Part shown: positions 1-6,377 of the stretch, piece by piece
Numbering within the stretch: position 1 is the stretch's first letter
How the letters are laid out: every line of letters begins with the position of its first letter
Assembly: GCF_021462415.1 (NCBI RefSeq)
Contig: NZ_JAKEDS010000001.1
Location: 1,460,273-1,524,272 of the forward strand
From: Rhodohalobacter sp. 614A
GTDB taxonomy: Bacteria > Bacteroidota > Rhodothermia > Balneolales > Balneolaceae
DNA length: 64,000 bases
Direction of reading: 5' to 3'
The notes under the pieces: generated by a model
Databases searched by the model: none
What the model was told of the DNA's origin: nothing
The model's input: only the letters and a program-made list of their open reading frames with translations
Position numbers and translations under genes: made by a program

Positions 1-389
1 CTTCCCATGAATCTAGAGCCATAGACAACATCTGCATTATCATAAAAAACGGGTTTAAGCATATCGTTGTACTCATTTGGGTCGTATTCCAGGTCGGCAT
101 CTTGAATTATTAAATAGTCACCGGATGCCTGTTTAATTCCCCTGTGCAGTGCAGTCCCTTTGCCCATGTTTTTATCCTGGTTCAATAATTTTATCTCCAG
201 TTGGGGATTCTCCCGAATGATTTTTTTTACGACATCTTCCGTTCTGTCTTCAGAGCAATCATTAATAATGATAATTTCTTTTTCAAGTTCATGGATGAGC
301 TGAACCTCAATAAGAGTATGTAGTAATTTCGCAATTGTATTTTCCTCATTGTAAGCAGGAATTACGATACTTAATTTTGATATATACAT
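1..389 (-). CDS. Family 2 glycosyltransferase, C-terminus beyond window edge
   Basis: The minus-strand frame opens with ATG at 389 and runs off the window start, so only about 129 N-terminal residues are present. They show the GT-A nucleotide-sugar fold of family GT2: [12 protein letters not shown] near the N-terminus, NDCSEDRT, and the DADLEYDP metal-binding segment. The pattern is that of dolichol/polyprenyl-phosphate hexose synthases, which load a sugar onto a lipid phosphate at the cytoplasmic face. It is the last visible gene of the operon that includes the GT39-like transferase, UbiA, terpene-cyclase-like and reductase genes, so a role in supplying a lipid-linked sugar is plausible. The exact sugar and acceptor cannot be read from the fragment. 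Confidence 0.85.
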
Positions 390-465
390 ATTTTAAAATT
401 AACGGAACACATTAAGCGAGTTGATGAACGGCCATTATTTGAAGTTGCCATGGATAGAAGAATTA

Positions 466-1629
466 TCATTGCAGGAATTCTTTTTGCTTTAGCCGCCGAT
501 ACCAAACTGTCATCTTAAAGAGAAGCGCAATTAAGCTCCACACCAGCGCTGATACAACAGGACCTTTTTTCCTGTAGAGCATGCGAGACATTGTTGTACG
601 GATCTTTAATTGCTTTAATACCGGATGCTTCAAAATTCTTTTTTTATAAGTGAAAAAGCTGAAATCATCCTTCTTAAATGCCTCGTTAATCTCAGCCGCC
701 GCAGCTTCACCATAAGCTATAGCAAAGGAGATACCTTCACCAAGAAGGGGGTCAACACCAGCTGCATCGCCGGCTAAAAGAATGCGCGGTCTGGAAAATG
801 ATGCATGGCGGTTAAAACATTGAATGGGATATCCCTTTAATTCGAAATCATCCAGATTTCGTCCGCGGCTGTTTAATACTTTTCTGAATGTCTTTTTAAG
901 AGATACAGGTTTCTGATTCTGCCATGTACGGCTGTCAAAAATTCCCCTGTTCATAAATGGTTTGTCTTTAATCATACTTGGGAAATCCCAATAATAGCCC
1001 TGTATGCCGGAGTCGATATGGCTGAAGTCGAACAGCGCTGTCCGATCACGAAATTCAGGCTGTTCGTCGGCATTTTCCGGTGTCAGAATTTCAAGTAATC
1101 GGGCCCTTTTTTTGTGAGTTTCCCATTGTAAGCTTTGTCGCACAAAACTGCGTGAGCCATCCGCTGCCACAACTGTTTTTGCATGAAAGGTTGTCTGTTC
1201 AGTCATAATCTCCACATAATCAGAGTGGGCATAGATTTTTTTCACAGCCTCATTCTGCCGGACAGTCACCCCCTTTTTCTCTGCCTGAAGGACCAGCCAG
1301 TGATCAAATTCATCGCGCCGCACAATTCTGAACGCGGGGTCATCACGGAGGGAAAAAGAGCGATTATGATAGATCATTCGTATTTCGCGTATCGAAACAT
1401 GAGGAGGATCAAAAGGTAGCCCTAAACTCGCAAGAAGATCGGCCCCCAAACTTGTGATGCCGCCACCACAAAGCTTTTCCCTGGGATGGGTTTCCTTTTC
1501 TAAAACCACAATTTTCTCAGCCCATTCTGGATTTATTTTAACCAGATGTAATGCAGTGGAAATACCTGCCGGACCGGAACCAACAATTAAGATGTCAACC
1601 TGTTTCGCTTGATCTTTTTTAAGGTCCAC
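466..1629 (-). CDS. Geranylgeranyl reductase family FAD-dependent oxidoreductase
   Basis: 387-residue flavoprotein. The N-terminal dinucleotide fold GSGPAG is at residues 17-22, the CGGG segment at 54-57, and the second FAD motif GDAAGVDPLLGEG at about 287-299. YYWDFP at 212-217 fits the YxWxFP substrate-cavity motif of geranylgeranyl reductases, which saturate double bonds of polyprenyl chains; this favours a reductase over an epoxidising monooxygenase. The start is GTG, with GGAG a few bases upstream; no better ATG is in frame. It follows the terpene-cyclase-like gene by 11 bases and lies downstream of UbiA, so its substrate is probably the prenylated product of that enzyme. Substrate and extent of reduction are unknown. 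Confidence 0.85.
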   Translation of the reverse strand: MDLKKDQAKQVDILIVGSGPAGISTALHLVKINPEWAEKIVVLEKETHPREKLCGGGITSLGADLLASLGLPFDPPHVSIREIRMIYHNRSFSLRDDPAFRIVRRDEFDHWLVLQAEKKGVTVRQNEAVKKIYAHSDYVEIMTEQTTFHAKTVVAADGSRSFVRQSLQWETHKKRARLLEILTPENADEQPEFRDRTALFDFSHIDSGIQGYYWDFPSMIKDKPFMNRGIFDSRTWQNQKPVSLKKTFRKVLNSRGRNLDDFELKGYPIQCFNRHASFSRPRILLAGDAAGVDPLLGEGISFAIAYGEAAAAEINEAFKKDDFSFFTYKKRILKHPVLKQLKIRTTMSRMLYRKKGPVVSALVWSLIALLFKMTVWYRRLKQKEFLQ

Positions 1630-1640
1630 TCTACTCCATA

Positions 1641-2306
1641 TTAATTCCCGGAGACAAGGGGCTCCGCCGATTGTATGTTGTCCGTGAAAATTGTTTTGCC
1701 TCTCCTTGCCTGGTACAGCAAAATGATATAAATGATATCAATTACGGCAATTAAACCGCCCAAAGCGCCCACCAAAAATATATTTCGGTTGAAGTAAAAT
1801 TGAATGGTAACCACCAGTGTGCCAATCCATTTGCAAACGGCGATAATCAAACTTTGTCCCTCTGCCCCCCGCCGTTGGTAAAACATGTTAATAAACAGGA
1901 TAGACATCATCAGGTTTTGGATGAATGCTGCATACAGAGGGCCCAGAACAATCCCGAATTGTACAATAAACGCCCATTGAATAGGGAAACTGATTCCAAA
2001 GATGAATACGGACCAGAGATAGAATATTTTTTTACTCAGATTGTGTGCGAAATATTTATAACCGTATTTAAAGAACGTATAAACAATAAAAGCGTCCAGA
2101 ATGGCACCGATAATATTATACTTGACCTGCATTGAGAATCCGAATGCGGCATGGCCCAAAACGGAGTCAACTACCTCCCAGGCAAAATTCAGTGCCAGTG
2201 CAAAGAGAGGCATTGCATAGGTTTTTTGAGTAAAACCAATACGAATTGCCTCCAGGTAGGTAATGATCCAAAAGATTGCAGAAAGCGTTAATAGAAAAGT
2301 TGCCAT
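1641..2306 (-). CDS. Membrane protein resembling Pyr4-type transmembrane terpene cyclases
   Basis: 221 residues with about seven hydrophobic segments and no soluble domain. Two features recall the fungal Pyr4/PaxB transmembrane terpene cyclases and their bacterial relatives: an acidic residue in the second helix within NFAWE (Glu44) and an Asp in the last helix within VIDIIYIILLY (Asp190). In Pyr4, acidic residues at comparable places are needed to protonate the epoxide or alkene and start cyclisation. Size (Pyr4 is about 240 residues) and its place between a UbiA prenyltransferase and a prenyl-modifying flavoprotein support the call. It lacks the signature of CrtYcd lycopene cyclases. Family assignment is by motif and context only, so moderate. 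Confidence 0.5.
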   Translation of the reverse strand: MATFLLTLSAIFWIITYLEAIRIGFTQKTYAMPLFALALNFAWEVVDSVLGHAAFGFSMQVKYNIIGAILDAFIVYTFFKYGYKYFAHNLSKKIFYLWSVFIFGISFPIQWAFIVQFGIVLGPLYAAFIQNLMMSILFINMFYQRRGAEGQSLIIAVCKWIGTLVVTIQFYFNRNIFLVGALGGLIAVIDIIYIILLYQARRGKTIFTDNIQSAEPLVSGN

Positions 2307-2314
2307 AATCGGTA

Positions 2315-3235
2315 TTAGTAAAGGGTTATTACACTGAGGCTTATAATCGCAACAATTACACCGTATAGAAGTCGGTACTGTGTGCGAAAGCGTTTAATTG
2401 TATGATAGTCTAACCCCTTCCGGGCCACCGCTATGGCCATGAAAAGATAGGCCGGATAAAAGAAGACCAGGTATTTGAGAAATGAAGGGATCAAATTTAT
2501 ATAACCCAACCAAAAAAGGTAAATAAATGACAGGGTAAAAATAATATTTGCTGTTATAAACATTTGATTAGGGCCAAATTGAACAGCGTGGGTACGAATA
2601 CCATTTTTTTGATCTCCTTTAAAATCTTGCACCTCTTGTACCAGGTGGCCCGCTACAAAAATAAAACTAAAGTAAAACGCTATTAGCAATCCTTTTTCAT
2701 CAATTTCAGAAAACAGTACATACCCAAGTAGAAAAGCGATTGAGCTGCCAATGAAATGCAATACGGAAGAGAGAATGGGTATCCGTTTTCCCTGTAAGGC
2801 TTGAACCGGGAATGAATAGACCAGGCTTAGCACTATTCCAATACTTGAGAGAACAAGTAATTGGTAAGAAAGCATTGCGAAGATGAGCACACTAACAATG
2901 CCCAGGATTATTGATATGCTTAGCATCTCTAAGTGGGCGATTCTTTTTGACAGAAAATTCGACTCCTTTTTACAAGGGTCCCGATAATCCACCATCTTAT
3001 CTACCCAGTCGTTAAATGCAAAGATGTGGGCCATTAAAAAGAAAGACGCGATTGTACAAGACAGAATTCTCGGAAACATTTCTACAGTCAAACTCTCAAC
3101 CGAAAATAGAATGCCGGTCAGGGCCGGGACCTGGGCTACGATAGCATCCTGATAACGGATACAGGATAACCAGGACTCTGTCTTATCCCTCACATCACTA
3201 AGTGTACTTGTATTAAAAATAGATTTATCGATCAT
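2315..3235 (-). CDS. UbiA-family prenyltransferase
   Basis: 306-residue polytopic membrane protein with both Asp-rich motifs of UbiA intramembrane prenyltransferases: NDWVDKMVD (residues 75-83) and QDFKGDQKNG (about 203-212), which bind the prenyl diphosphate through Mg2+. The family transfers prenyl chains to aromatic rings, haem, chlorophyllide or, in DGGGP synthases, a glycerol lipid. Its ATG is 15 bases after the GT39-like gene and it ends 8 bases before the terpene-cyclase-like gene. The acceptor is unknown: quinone, meroterpenoid core and archaeal-type ether lipid are all possible. No aromatic-acid biosynthesis gene lies nearby to decide. Confidence 0.85.
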   Translation of the reverse strand: MIDKSIFNTSTLSDVRDKTESWLSCIRYQDAIVAQVPALTGILFSVESLTVEMFPRILSCTIASFFLMAHIFAFNDWVDKMVDYRDPCKKESNFLSKRIAHLEMLSISIILGIVSVLIFAMLSYQLLVLSSIGIVLSLVYSFPVQALQGKRIPILSSVLHFIGSSIAFLLGYVLFSEIDEKGLLIAFYFSFIFVAGHLVQEVQDFKGDQKNGIRTHAVQFGPNQMFITANIIFTLSFIYLFWLGYINLIPSFLKYLVFFYPAYLFMAIAVARKGLDYHTIKRFRTQYRLLYGVIVAIISLSVITLY

Positions 3236-3250
3236 TTTTTGGCAAACTGT

Positions 3251-4927
3251 TTAATCAATTTTGTTTTCCTTTTTTTCGACTATGTTAACTACGGGGGATT
3301 CATCTTGAAGCCGTTTGTACTGGTTTAACTTCATTAATATATCACGGGTCGCGTTAATTCTTTGTTCAAATCGGCCGGGCAAAACCTTCAGGTATTCTGG
3401 CTCACGGTCTATTCCTTTCAAGCTGCCTGTGAAATACCCCGACAGGATTTCATTGAGATGATTCCGATCTGTTATTTTGGGTGAGGTTAAAATGACCAAT
3501 TCGTTGGTATAATAGGGATGGACAATGACTTCTGTCGAAAAATATTTGGACCAAATTTGTAGAGCTTCGGGATGATTAAAAGTGACAATAATCAACCGCC
3601 CCGACCGGGTGAAATTACCATAGGGTTTTGATTGCGTACTAACCAGGTTAGTGATTTTAATGTATTGAGATTTTAGGGGTCTGTTGAGGATAAATCTCAG
3701 ATGATCCGGGTCTTCCGATAATACATCATTCGGTTGAATAATCTCATTTAGCCGTTGAAGGGCAATTGATGAACCGTGCGGTTCTGTAATAATAGGTTCT
3801 AATGTGTTTGCAGGGGAATAAATCCAATTGCCAAAAATGAGTGCCGTGGTAAGGAAAACAGCTGTGAGTGTAGAGTATTGAGGAACAAGCTTGCGGCTGA
3901 TAAACAAAAGGGCGGAAGCAATCAGGATAAAATGTGCTGGAAGTACCAGGATTAGAAATCGTGCAATAGCAAGGTCAGGCTGATTCGTTCCGGTCAGGAA
4001 AAAAAATATAAAGGGAACAGTTGCCCATAAAATCAGAAATCGCCCGGTTTCTTTATAACGCTTAATGGCAATCAGGCAACCCATAAGGAGTAAACCGAGC
4101 ATTACAACGGCTGTATATGGATGCAATATTTTAAACACTCCAAAATAGACCCCAATATTCCATTGGTTCATATCGCTTGTTAGGGCTGCCAGCATAGGAG
4201 GGATTTGAACGAGTATCTGACTGTAGAAAAGTAAACCCAAGAGAAGGGAAAGGATAAAACTCCAGCAAAAGTTCAGAAAGAGTTTCCAGTCACGTTTAGA
4301 TGGAATGAGTAAGGTTTCGATTACTGCAGAACAGAATTGAACCAGGATTATATAGGAAGAAATACTTGAGAAAGTTAGAGCCAGACCATTCGCAATACCA
4401 AGCCAAATAAAATACCTGCTTTGTCTTTTTTTGAACGCCTGGTAATACAAATATATAACCAGTATAATTACAAGAAGCAGGATAGAATAAACTCTCGCGT
4501 AACGCGAAAATTCAATAAGAAAAGGGTTGAAGGCAGCAAATAATATAGCCAGTATGGCAACCCTCTGATTCAGCCACTTTTTTGTCAATTGGTAGAGAGC
4601 CGGAAGAATTAAAATTCCCGCTAACAGTGAAGGTGCTTTGACGATAAGGGGCGAATTACCTAAAAAAAATGTCCATACCTTCATAAAGAGCAGGTACATG
4701 TGCATACTCAGGCCTGTTTCCAGGTGAGTCATCAGGTAACTTACCGAAGAGTTTGAAAATCGAAGAGTCCACACTTCATCACTGTAGAAAGAGAGGTGCG
4801 GAAGGGTAAATAATCGCAATAGAATTCCGCAGAAGATCACTAAAAAAAAGCCCGTAGAAAAATTTGTCCTAATCCTTGCTAATGGATGTATGGTATTAAG
4901 GAGAGGACCCCTGAAATCATTTTCCAA
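3251..4927 (-). CDS. GT39/ArnT-like polytopic glycosyltransferase
   Basis: 558 residues with about ten hydrophobic helices followed by a soluble C-terminal part from about residue 385. The first periplasmic loop carries the acidic pair YSDEVW (Asp50-Glu51), the catalytic signature of GT39/GT83 (PMT, ArnT) enzymes that take a sugar from a polyprenyl-phosphate donor on the outer face of the membrane. The start is TTG; an in-frame TGA lies just upstream and no early ATG exists. It is the first gene of the operon 4927 to 1, and the GT2 gene at the far end could make its donor. The acceptor may be protein, lipid or the isoprenoid product; the sequence does not say. Confidence 0.75.
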   Translation of the reverse strand: MENDFRGPLLNTIHPLARIRTNFSTGFFLVIFCGILLRLFTLPHLSFYSDEVWTLRFSNSSVSYLMTHLETGLSMHMYLLFMKVWTFFLGNSPLIVKAPSLLAGILILPALYQLTKKWLNQRVAILAILFAAFNPFLIEFSRYARVYSILLLVIILVIYLYYQAFKKRQSRYFIWLGIANGLALTFSSISSYIILVQFCSAVIETLLIPSKRDWKLFLNFCWSFILSLLLGLLFYSQILVQIPPMLAALTSDMNQWNIGVYFGVFKILHPYTAVVMLGLLLMGCLIAIKRYKETGRFLILWATVPFIFFFLTGTNQPDLAIARFLILVLPAHFILIASALLFISRKLVPQYSTLTAVFLTTALIFGNWIYSPANTLEPIITEPHGSSIALQRLNEIIQPNDVLSEDPDHLRFILNRPLKSQYIKITNLVSTQSKPYGNFTRSGRLIIVTFNHPEALQIWSKYFSTEVIVHPYYTNELVILTSPKITDRNHLNEILSGYFTGSLKGIDREPEYLKVLPGRFEQRINATRDILMKLNQYKRLQDESPVVNIVEKKENKID

Positions 4928-5072: not shown

Positions 5073-6377
5073 TCAATCATCAATGGCCTGGAATACCAAC
5101 TGCCGGAATTTCCAGCCGGTTTCATCGCCGGTGGGGCCCTGGGTTTGTTTGAAGATCAGCCCGATGACATTTTCATTCGGATCAGCGAAGTATTGCGTGT
5201 TGAAATATCCGCCCCAGTCAAATGTGCCGGCGTATCCTCGTCCGCCGGAACGTTCACCGTGATCAGTAAGAACGGCAAATGCCAAGCCATGCCCTCTGCC
5301 GGGCTCTCTGAAAAGATCATCAATTTGGTTTTGCATCATAAAGTTGACTGTCGTTCTGCTGAGAAGCCGGATTCCGTCGTATTCTCCATTATTCAGATAC
5401 ATTTGCAGGAATTTGGCATAATCTTCTACCGTGCTGGAAAGCCCCGCGCCGCCTGAGAAAAATGTCATTTCGCCGGTTCGTGGATAATTGGGATCATAAA
5501 ATGTAACCGGGTAAGGTTCCCAATTGCCATTCTGGTCTTTTCGCTGAACGGTTACCAGCCGGTCGTGTTTGGATCGCGGCAGGTAGAACCAGGTATCGTC
5601 CATTCCAAGCGGATCAAAAATGTGGGTTCGGAGAAATTCGTCGAACGGCATGCCGGACATCACTTCAATAAAATATCCCAATACATCCAGCCCTTCGCTG
5701 TACGTATATTTTGAACCCGGTTCGTGATGCAGCGGAAGTTTGGCGAGTTTCGTCACACTCTCTTCGATGGTAATATCTTCCGTTGTAAACAGGTCGGTGA
5801 CCCCGGCTTTTTTGTAGATCATTTGAAATCGATCATCGCCGTCAATGACGCCATAGCCAAGGCCGGAGGTGTGAGTCAGCAAGTGCCGGATCGTAATCTG
5901 GTTTTTGGCGGGAACGGTTGTGTAGGTTGTATCATCAGCATTGAACGTATCCAGGATTTGAGCTTCTCCAAAAAAGGGCAGGTATTTTGAGATCGGGTCG
6001 TCCAGTTGGAAAAGTCCCTCTTCCCAAAGCATCATGACAGCCGTGGAAGTGATGGCTTTGCTTTGGGATGCAATCCTGAAAATGGTATCGGTTTGTAACC
6101 TGCGGCCGGCCTCGTTATCGGCCATGCCAAATGCTTTTTTATAGATGATTTTGCCATCGCGGGCGATCAATGCAACGGCACCGGGAATCTGGTTTTCGCT
6201 GACGGCATTTTCGATCATTTCATCAATTCGTGAAAGCCGTTCGTCGGACATCCCAACGTCTTCTGCACTTCCTTCTTCCAGCGGGGGAGTATAGAGGATG
6301 GATTCTGTTTGAGCAAAAACTGTGAATGAAGAAAAAGTGAAAAGAATAGCAATCAGGTATTTCATGGCAACGATCAT
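5073..6377 (-). CDS. Secreted serine hydrolase, class C beta-lactamase/esterase family
   Basis: 434 residues. A signal peptide ends at about FAQ (residues 21-23). The serine nucleophile and lysine base of the beta-lactamase/DD-peptidase fold are in SQSK (104-107), followed by LLTHTSGLGYG and PGSKYTYSEGLD, typical of EstB-like esterases and D-aminopeptidases. The second ATG (M5, 6365) gives a cleaner signal peptide and may be the true start. The gene stands alone and is divergent from the M1 peptidase, with a 220-base shared promoter region. The fold is clear; whether it hydrolyses esters, peptides or lactams is not. Confidence 0.85.
   Translation of the reverse strand: MIVAMKYLIAILFTFSSFTVFAQTESILYTPPLEEGSAEDVGMSDERLSRIDEMIENAVSENQIPGAVALIARDGKIIYKKAFGMADNEAGRRLQTDTIFRIASQSKAITSTAVMMLWEEGLFQLDDPISKYLPFFGEAQILDTFNADDTTYTTVPAKNQITIRHLLTHTSGLGYGVIDGDDRFQMIYKKAGVTDLFTTEDITIEESVTKLAKLPLHHEPGSKYTYSEGLDVLGYFIEVMSGMPFDEFLRTHIFDPLGMDDTWFYLPRSKHDRLVTVQRKDQNGNWEPYPVTFYDPNYPRTGEMTFFSGGAGLSSTVEDYAKFLQMYLNNGEYDGIRLLSRTTVNFMMQNQIDDLFREPGRGHGLAFAVLTDHGERSGGRGYAGTFDWGGYFNTQYFADPNENVIGLIFKQTQGPTGDETGWKFRQLVFQAIDD

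Follow-up and report, generated by a model that had tools for sequence, protein, structure and literature searches.

What do five closely packed genes at one end of a 64,000-nucleotide stretch of the Rhodohalobacter sp. 614A genome (contig NZ_JAKEDS010000001.1, positions 1,460,273 to 1,524,272 of the forward strand; the whole stretch is called the window here) make together, and how did they come to stand there? All five are on the minus strand, arranged head to tail. In order they encode a 558-residue GT-C glycosyltransferase (PMT_2 / GT39-83-like; 3251..4927), a 306-residue UbiA-family membrane prenyltransferase (2315..3235), a 221-residue putative Pyr4-like transmembrane terpene cyclase (1641..2306), a 387-residue flavoprotein of the geranylgeranyl (GG)-reductase family (466..1629) and a DPM1/AglJ-like family 2 glycosyltransferase (GT2; 3..389). 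The last gene is cut by the window edge, so that 129 of its 241 residues fall within the window; it continues below the window start and spans C1:1459939-1460661 without its stop codon. The intergenic gaps measure 15 bases between the GT-C and UbiA genes, 8 between the UbiA and cyclase genes and 11 between the cyclase and reductase genes, with the GT2 gene following after 76. Every one of the five proteins has a Pfam match above cut-off. The original prediction, which had placed these five kinds of protein side by side with gaps of 8-15 bases among the first four genes, holds. Judging from spacing and strand, the five genes are presumably co-transcribed. Consensus promoter and terminator scans gave counts close to shuffled background (18 versus 16.2 and 8 versus 6.3, respectively), no Rfam family reached its gathering score over 7,501 bases, and three of the proteins had no match in PHROGs. 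The operon genes have a G+C content of 0.355-0.441 against a mean of 0.442 (standard deviation 0.044) for 44 open reading frames (ORFs) of the window, which is lower but not decisive.

We propose tentatively, and with slightly less than even confidence, that this operon was gained as one unit and that its product is a prenyl conjugate which has been cyclised, partly saturated and glycosylated. Gene content, motifs, spacing and the insertion signature were computed; co-transcription, the order of steps, the substrates and the product are what we infer from them. In the proposed route, UbiA would attach a prenyl diphosphate to an acceptor in the membrane, and the Pyr4-like cyclase would then protonate a terminal double bond directly, without an epoxide, as has been reported of DmtA1, folding the chain into one or more rings. 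The GG-reductase would saturate the double bonds that remain. On the cytoplasmic side of the membrane, the DPM1-like GT2 would charge polyprenyl phosphate with a sugar, which the GT-C enzyme would then pass, on the outer side, to the lipid or to a different acceptor.

The centre of the proposal is the 221-residue protein. It matches Pyr4-TMTC (PF25129) with 64.9 bits (cut-off 27), and this was the sole Pfam family at E≤1; the original prediction had staked its case on the protein not belonging to some unrelated family, and none appeared. The Pyr4-like candidate residues are Y17, N40, E44, D190 and Y193. In a 25-row alignment the first three are kept in 25/25, 24/25 and 21/25 rows, and D190 and Y193 in 23/23 and 21/23 of the rows that have a letter at the position. 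The spacing of Y17, N40 and E44 (23 and then 4 residues) and of D190 and Y193 (3 residues) equals that of Y33/N56/E60 and D214/Y217 in DmtA1, a match made by local spacing and not by an alignment to DmtA1 itself. In that enzyme the E60A, E60Q, Y33A and Y33F variants are inactive, N56A and Y217A are poor, D214A is nearly inactive and D214N is partly active (PMC6173783). DmtA1 is reported to start cyclisation by protonation of a C=C bond, not of an epoxide (PMC6173783), and direct C=C protonation has also been proposed for ZigF (PMC13307353). The residues E63 and D218 were not found in the texts of PMC10882540 and PMC11109268. With 221 residues and a predicted seven-helix fold, the protein is within the size range (about 220-250 residues) and topology of the family; a PDB sequence search at E≤1 returned no solved relative.

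The two glycosyltransferases would supply the sugar. The GT-C protein scores 40.8 bits against PMT_2 (cut-off 26.1) and 25.1 bits against PMT, also above cut-off; against TIGR03663 it reaches 42.7 bits, under the cut-off of 126.25. A YxDE-type motif is a mark of GT-C enzymes. The protein carries YSDE at residue 48 and about 9 hydrophobic segments in a simple scan, and it has no solved relative in a PDB sequence search at E≤1. The GT2 matches Glycos_transf_2 (PF00535) with 113.5 bits (cut-off 23.3), and its nearest solved relative is the dolichol-phosphate mannose synthase 5mlz (E 1.9e-18). Its best NCBIfam model is TIGR04182 AglJ at 102.4 bits, under the cut-off of 325. Because one enzyme is DPM1/AglJ-like and the other is of the GT-C type, the two may be maker and user of a lipid-phosphate-linked sugar and not two successive transferases. 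Of the two sugar transferases claimed at the outset, both are present, and their roles are refined to a DPM1/AglJ-like GT2 and a GT-C enzyme, possibly a sugar-carrier pair.

A different explanation for the same genes arises from the predicted fold of the cyclase protein. The AlphaFold2 model (predicted local distance difference test 93.9, predicted template modelling score 0.87) has six long helices, of which helix 92-144 is long enough for two spans, and matches a seven-helix fold along almost its full length; by itself, a crude scan of hydropathy gives only 4 segments. The model resembles the group of the KDEL receptor, SWEET, cystinosin and PQ-loop proteins, which occupy the top 16 rows with VIA-align Z values of 10.0-14.9 (next row 6.4). 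Its best match is 6i6b, with Z 14.9 over 187 residues and a root-mean-square deviation of 3.9. According to the tool's own caution, a Z below about 13 between helical bundles may reflect no more than a common arrangement; ten rows lie above 13. The best Foldseek match has E 3.1e-3, none being at 0.001 or better, and two named viral PQ-loop proteins are among the fold matches (E 0.011 and 0.25). The KDEL receptor, SWEET and a lipid-linked sugar translocase share one superfamily, and the available part of PMC7176098, which describes it, mentions no terpene or cyclase; among the papers listed by our literature search, none links Pyr4-type cyclases to the PQ-loop, SWEET or KDEL-receptor fold.

The five genes might accordingly be read as a bacterial dolichol-phosphate-sugar route, in which the GT2 makes polyprenyl-phosphate-sugar, the reductase saturates the carrier in the manner of archaeal dolichol, the seven-helix protein acts like MPDU1, aiding the presentation or flipping of the lipid-sugar, and not as a cyclase, and the GT-C enzyme uses the sugar. 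The predicted fold would suit such a role, as would the AglJ/DPM1-like GT2, and MPDU1 is itself a PQ-loop protein, of unknown mechanism, needed by transferases that depend on monosaccharide-phosphate-dolichol (PMC3281891). We consider this route rather unlikely: it leaves no place for UbiA, and a shared fold is not proof of function. No PQ-loop Pfam family matches the protein at E≤1, and the PQ doublet, present somewhere in 7/25 aligned rows of the cyclase family, is absent from its sequence. Because it matches Pyr4-TMTC, keeps the cyclase residues and lacks PQ signatures, it is more likely a Pyr4-like terpene cyclase than a PQ-loop helper.

The flavoprotein stands where fungal pathways have an oxidase, and the original prediction that a reductase fills this slot is borne out by its motifs and by a match to TIGR02032 (GG-red-SF) of 160.4 bits, barely above the cut-off of 158.8. 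Along its sequence we located GxGxxG (residue 17), CGGG (54), RxxFD (105), YxWxFP (212) and LxGD (285). CGGG, RxxFD, PxxYxWxFP and LxGD are described as motifs of archaeal GG-reductases (PMC10821996), and the leading Pro of PxxYxWxFP is missing here. The closest solved relative is the digeranylgeranylglycerophospholipid reductase 3oz2 (E 1.9e-10, residues 11-328 of 387), with no PDB match at 1e-10 and eighteen at 0.01. An epoxidase function of this protein was considered and rejected on the motifs and the TIGR02032 subfamily, and among the five operon genes no epoxidase was recognised and no P450 was found. The prenyltransferase matches PF01040 with 98.1 bits (cut-off 34.2) and has the Asp-rich motifs NDxxDxxxD at residue 75 and DxxxD at residue 204. 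It matches 24 NCBIfam families at E≤1, all of them below their cut-offs (best PRK12884, 61.4 bits versus 269), and a PDB sequence search gave no solved relative at E≤0.01. Five other UbiA proteins are encoded in the same genome: heme O synthase, MenA, EboC and two that match no NCBIfam model at 1e-8.

For both proteins the best scores are with, or close to, models of archaeal lipid enzymes (PRK12884 61 and PRK12882 52 bits for UbiA; 3oz2 for the reductase), which would fit an archaeal-type ether-lipid pathway with UbiA as digeranylgeranylglyceryl phosphate (DGGGP) synthase and the flavoprotein as its reductase. This pathway is very improbable. The UbiA subfamily scores are far under the cut-offs, and geranylgeranylglyceryl phosphate (GGGP) synthase (PcrB, PF01884) was found in 0/1 of the host's own genome, in a search whose control detected it in 7/14 genomes, 5 of them above cut-off.

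The second part of the question is how the genes arrived. A 48-bp direct repeat, 47/48 identical, with its copies 5,484 bp apart, brackets exactly the five operon genes. Copy 1 (5075..5122, unstranded) lies at the 3′ end of a serine hydrolase gene (Beta-lactamase family, PF00144 252.1 bits; 434 residues, 5073..6377, minus strand), which is the insertion site and stands outside the pathway. Copy 2 lies just past the GT2 gene, outside the window (C1:1459863-1459910). Within the window, the 32-bp core of the repeat matches nowhere else at 3 or fewer mismatches (expected 0.00). Between the copies a non-overlapping call of ORFs of 90 residues or more retained only the five operon genes, and no integrase or recombinase of the unit's own was seen among the ORFs of that size. 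In two species of the same genus, G026 and G027, a DUF4260 gene comes no more than about 100 bases after the orthologous serine hydrolase gene (85% and 83%), with no operon; G014 and G015 have the hydrolase orthologue (71% and 70%) with other neighbours, likewise with no operon. A direct repeat of the target gene's end at both edges, together with empty sites in relatives, is the pattern of an element that integrates at the 3′ end of a gene.

In the stop-codon register, copy 2 shares the stop TAA with G026 and G027 and is 45/48 identical to G026, and copy 1 shares TGA with G014 and G015 and is 44/48 identical to G026. The two copies match each other at 46/48 in this register, barely closer than either matches G026. 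On the basis of these few positions, copy 2 would be the gene's original end, now displaced, and copy 1 an import, in which case the donor would have carried the operon beside a related hydrolase gene. Because of the tight same-strand spacing, the 48-bp repeat around exactly five genes and the two empty-site species, the operon looks like a single inserted unit. Between copy 2 and the DUF4260 gene we also observed a PD40 beta-propeller gene (331 residues, L007:12653-13648). It is absent from the same place in G026 and G027, and the site may therefore have been hit more than once.

The repeats bear on a further alternative, in which a quinone or other core membrane lipid is modified by UbiA, cyclase and reductase so that its tail is omega-cyclised and partly saturated, and the glycosyltransferases work on a glycan unconnected with it. 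The GG-reductase family does include menaquinone reductases such as AF_0648 (PMC10821996), and the flavoprotein scores 47.5 bits against MenJ, far under its cut-off of 700. In G019 a GT2 65% identical to that of the operon occurs without UbiA, cyclase or reductase on an 11-kb stretch whose contig ends about 400 bases upstream of the GT2 gene. Set against this are a separate MenA in the genome, the 48-bp repeats that enclose all five genes and the position of the GT-C gene as first of the set, and we regard such tailoring as improbable. At the G019 locus (L082:8404-10614) the gene after the GT2 gene encodes an unrelated membrane-type protein of 472 residues that matches no Pfam family at 1e-4 and looks like a GT-C enzyme (LIDE near the N terminus).

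If the proposed glyco-terpenoid operon is one pathway, how widely is it shared? In the following counts the window's own genome is included. The cyclase protein was found in 1/28 genomes of the genus, and its family in 1/244 genomes of the class and 23/394 of the phylum; in the phylum of G544 the family occurs in 2/398 genomes, the centre alone being above cut-off. UbiA was found in 1/394 phylum genomes (E≤1e-10), its own, in 0/7 genomes of the named loci (a search without positive control) and in no viral contig. GT-C and reductase were each found in 1/28 genus genomes, again only their own (both E≤1e-10). GT2 matches occur in 28/28 genus genomes. Besides its own gene, only the G019 copy (65%) and a copy with internal stops in G026 (41%) rise clearly above the level of the family at large (E of 1e-20 or weaker). 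Among plasmids the cyclase matches 6 records, UbiA none at E≤1e-3, the reductase none at 1e-10 and GT-C one, covering 26% of the query.

The closest relatives found for the cyclase come from actinobacteria, namely four loci of Microbacteriaceae type (44-45%) and a Streptomyces plasmid (50%). A tree, read without regard to support values, also groups the window cyclase with actinobacterial proteins. Family f25, probably the green sulfur bacteria, has 14 genomes in the phylum draw, with cyclase copies 35-48% identical by BLAST; in one of them (L044) the copy lies beside housekeeping-type genes. GG-reductase-like neighbours (BLAST 25-29%) occur in the flanks of seven other loci of the phylum (L041, L043, L044, L046, L047, L049 and L059). 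The one in L044 is in a run with a tRNA synthetase gene, and we take it to be bchP, a guess in that no tool gave it this name. We do not count these seven loci as support, because six belong to f25, the family of that presumed bchP gene, and none has a UbiA match. What does count in favour of the proposal is an overlapping GT2-UbiA-cyclase run beside a Wzz gene (G199, L051), which is a second case of glycosyltransferase, UbiA and cyclase genes standing together.

Cyclase-family genes of the phylum have other neighbours as well. They adjoin MpaB/Lcp-type oxygenase genes in L053, L058, L060 and L062, and signalling genes in L056 (histidine kinases), L058 (SpoIIE) and L059 (nucleotide cyclase), which links this family to signalling loci. 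On a Nostoc plasmid the gene after the cyclase copy is annotated as isopentenyl phosphate kinase, and in L064 an annotated hydroxyneurosporene dehydrogenase gene lies about 4 kb from the cyclase gene.

Several findings weigh against the proposed glyco-terpenoid pathway. First, the original prediction would fall if its neighbours were conserved together nowhere, and this applies in part: no second genome with the same five-gene set was found in the genus, class, phylum, viral-contig and plasmid searches. UbiA was detected near a cyclase-family gene in 2/35 places (here and in L051) and in none of the other 33/35, with a hidden Markov model built from seven UbiA proteins that include both of those matched, which therefore match by construction, and on contigs several of which are short. 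The 35 places comprise 23 from the phylum, 8 named and 4 of the 6 plasmid matches (H1-H4; the remaining two, H5 and H6, are additional records of S. clavuligerus). By BLAST, the UbiA of L051 shows no significant similarity to that of the window; it resembles (31%) a UbiA from a different GT2-UbiA pair of the genome to which the window belongs. The 12-kb L051 contig has no GG-reductase match. Among the nearest relatives, of which L034, L040 and L064 were examined for neighbours and L033 and L035 left out, TetR-type genes stand next to the cyclase gene in L034 and L064 (annotated) and near it in L040, apart from UbiA. Second, C=C protonation by DmtA1 is thought to depend on a further acidic residue, D94 (PMC6173783), which we could not match by spacing: D71, kept in 24/25 rows, lies 27 and not 34 residues past the Glu. 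The catalytic Glu is replaced by Ala in 4/25 rows (L048, L052, L055 and L057, all of family f25), so that the cyclase family includes probable non-cyclases. Third, the top Pfam match of the flavoprotein is the monooxygenase-type FAD_binding_3 (51.1 bits, cut-off 22), and its PDB matches also include halogenases (1.7e-7) and the monooxygenase PnpA (2e-5). GGR_cat (PF22578) is not among its 13 Pfam families at E≤1, though two relatives from other loci match it. Last, none of the five operon genes encodes a prenyl diphosphate synthase or makes an aromatic acceptor.

With no conserved gene order found, and with a site that, given the extra PD40 gene, may simply collect DNA, the five genes could be a chance mosaic, brought in together on one piece of DNA and sharing no pathway. 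The gaps of 8-15 bases among four of the genes, the key motifs in all five proteins, the three isoprenoid-type enzymes side by side and the partial parallel in L051 make this quite improbable.

Compared with known systems, the proposed glyco-terpenoid operon is built of familiar parts. Bacterial clusters with Pyr4-like cyclases include those of zigralone (ZigF), xiamycin (XiaE/XiaH), tolypodiol (TylF), gromomycin (GroF) and drimentine (DmtA1). They share with the operon a cyclase and a prenyltransferase, which is a UbiA protein in zig and phytoene-synthase-like in dmt (PMC13307353, PMC6173783). Unlike them, the operon has no P450, flavin epoxidase or aromatic- or peptide-forming enzyme, and it has a GG-reductase, a DPM1-like GT2 and a GT-C enzyme. 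With the fungal meroterpenoid pathways of UbiA, flavin epoxidase and Pyr4 it has in common UbiA, a Pyr4-like cyclase and a FAD_binding_3 flavoprotein; it differs in that its flavoprotein has reductase motifs, in that there is no polyketide synthase and in the added glycosyltransferases. The motifs of the archaeal GG-reductase/DGGGP reductase (TIGR02032, 3oz2) are shared except for the leading Pro, and no GGGP synthase accompanies them in the genome. As in systems that combine a DPM1/AglJ GT2 with a PMT-type GT-C, a similar GT2 has a partner GT-C, with a GT2 score under the AglJ cut-off. The L051 run shares glycosyltransferase, UbiA and cyclase with the operon and differs in its dissimilar UbiA, the lack of a GG-reductase match and the Wzz neighbour.

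The description of the product as an unrecognised isoprenoid therefore has to be softened, since bacterial Pyr4-like cyclases, also beside UbiA, are already published (PMC13307353, PMC6173783). A survey kept 264/1,107 candidates, near terpenoid genes and 69% actinobacterial, and described bacterial Pyr4-type meroterpenoids as largely unexplored (PMC13307353). In openly accessible papers we found no report that joins UbiA, GG-reductase, terpene cyclase and glycosyltransferase, or that describes UbiA and GG-reductase clusters in Bacteroidetes. What appears to be new, as far as the sequence goes, is the reductase in place of an oxidase, the lipid-linked sugar pair and the compact repeat-bracketed unit.

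Within 5.5 kb, enclosed by short repeats, the operon combines genes for a putative Pyr4-like cyclase, a reductase and lipid-linked glycosylation, and at this total length it is small enough to be expressed whole in a laboratory host. It also lets one ask whether a transporter- or receptor-type fold can do terpene cyclisation. The broadest version of our proposal is a horizontally mobile, self-contained cassette of 5.5 kb through which a bacterium would gain surface glyco-terpenoids of a new class. The prenyl lipid would be cyclised by direct protonation, saturated by the GG-reductase and given its sugar at the outer face of the membrane by a GT2/GT-C pair of dolichol-phosphate-sugar type, and the cyclase would have the PQ-loop/SWEET/KDEL-receptor fold; we offer this version as a speculative possibility that is more doubtful than not. 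Elsewhere in the same genome, at C1 about 149-156 kb (L108:3099-10460), we noted a possible second glyco-terpenoid cluster, with a weak squalene-hopene-cyclase-C match, a sulfotransferase-like gene (below cut-off), an acyltransferase-P450 fusion, a GT4, a GT2 and a UbiA gene; another UbiA gene (L006) lies about 12 kb from it.

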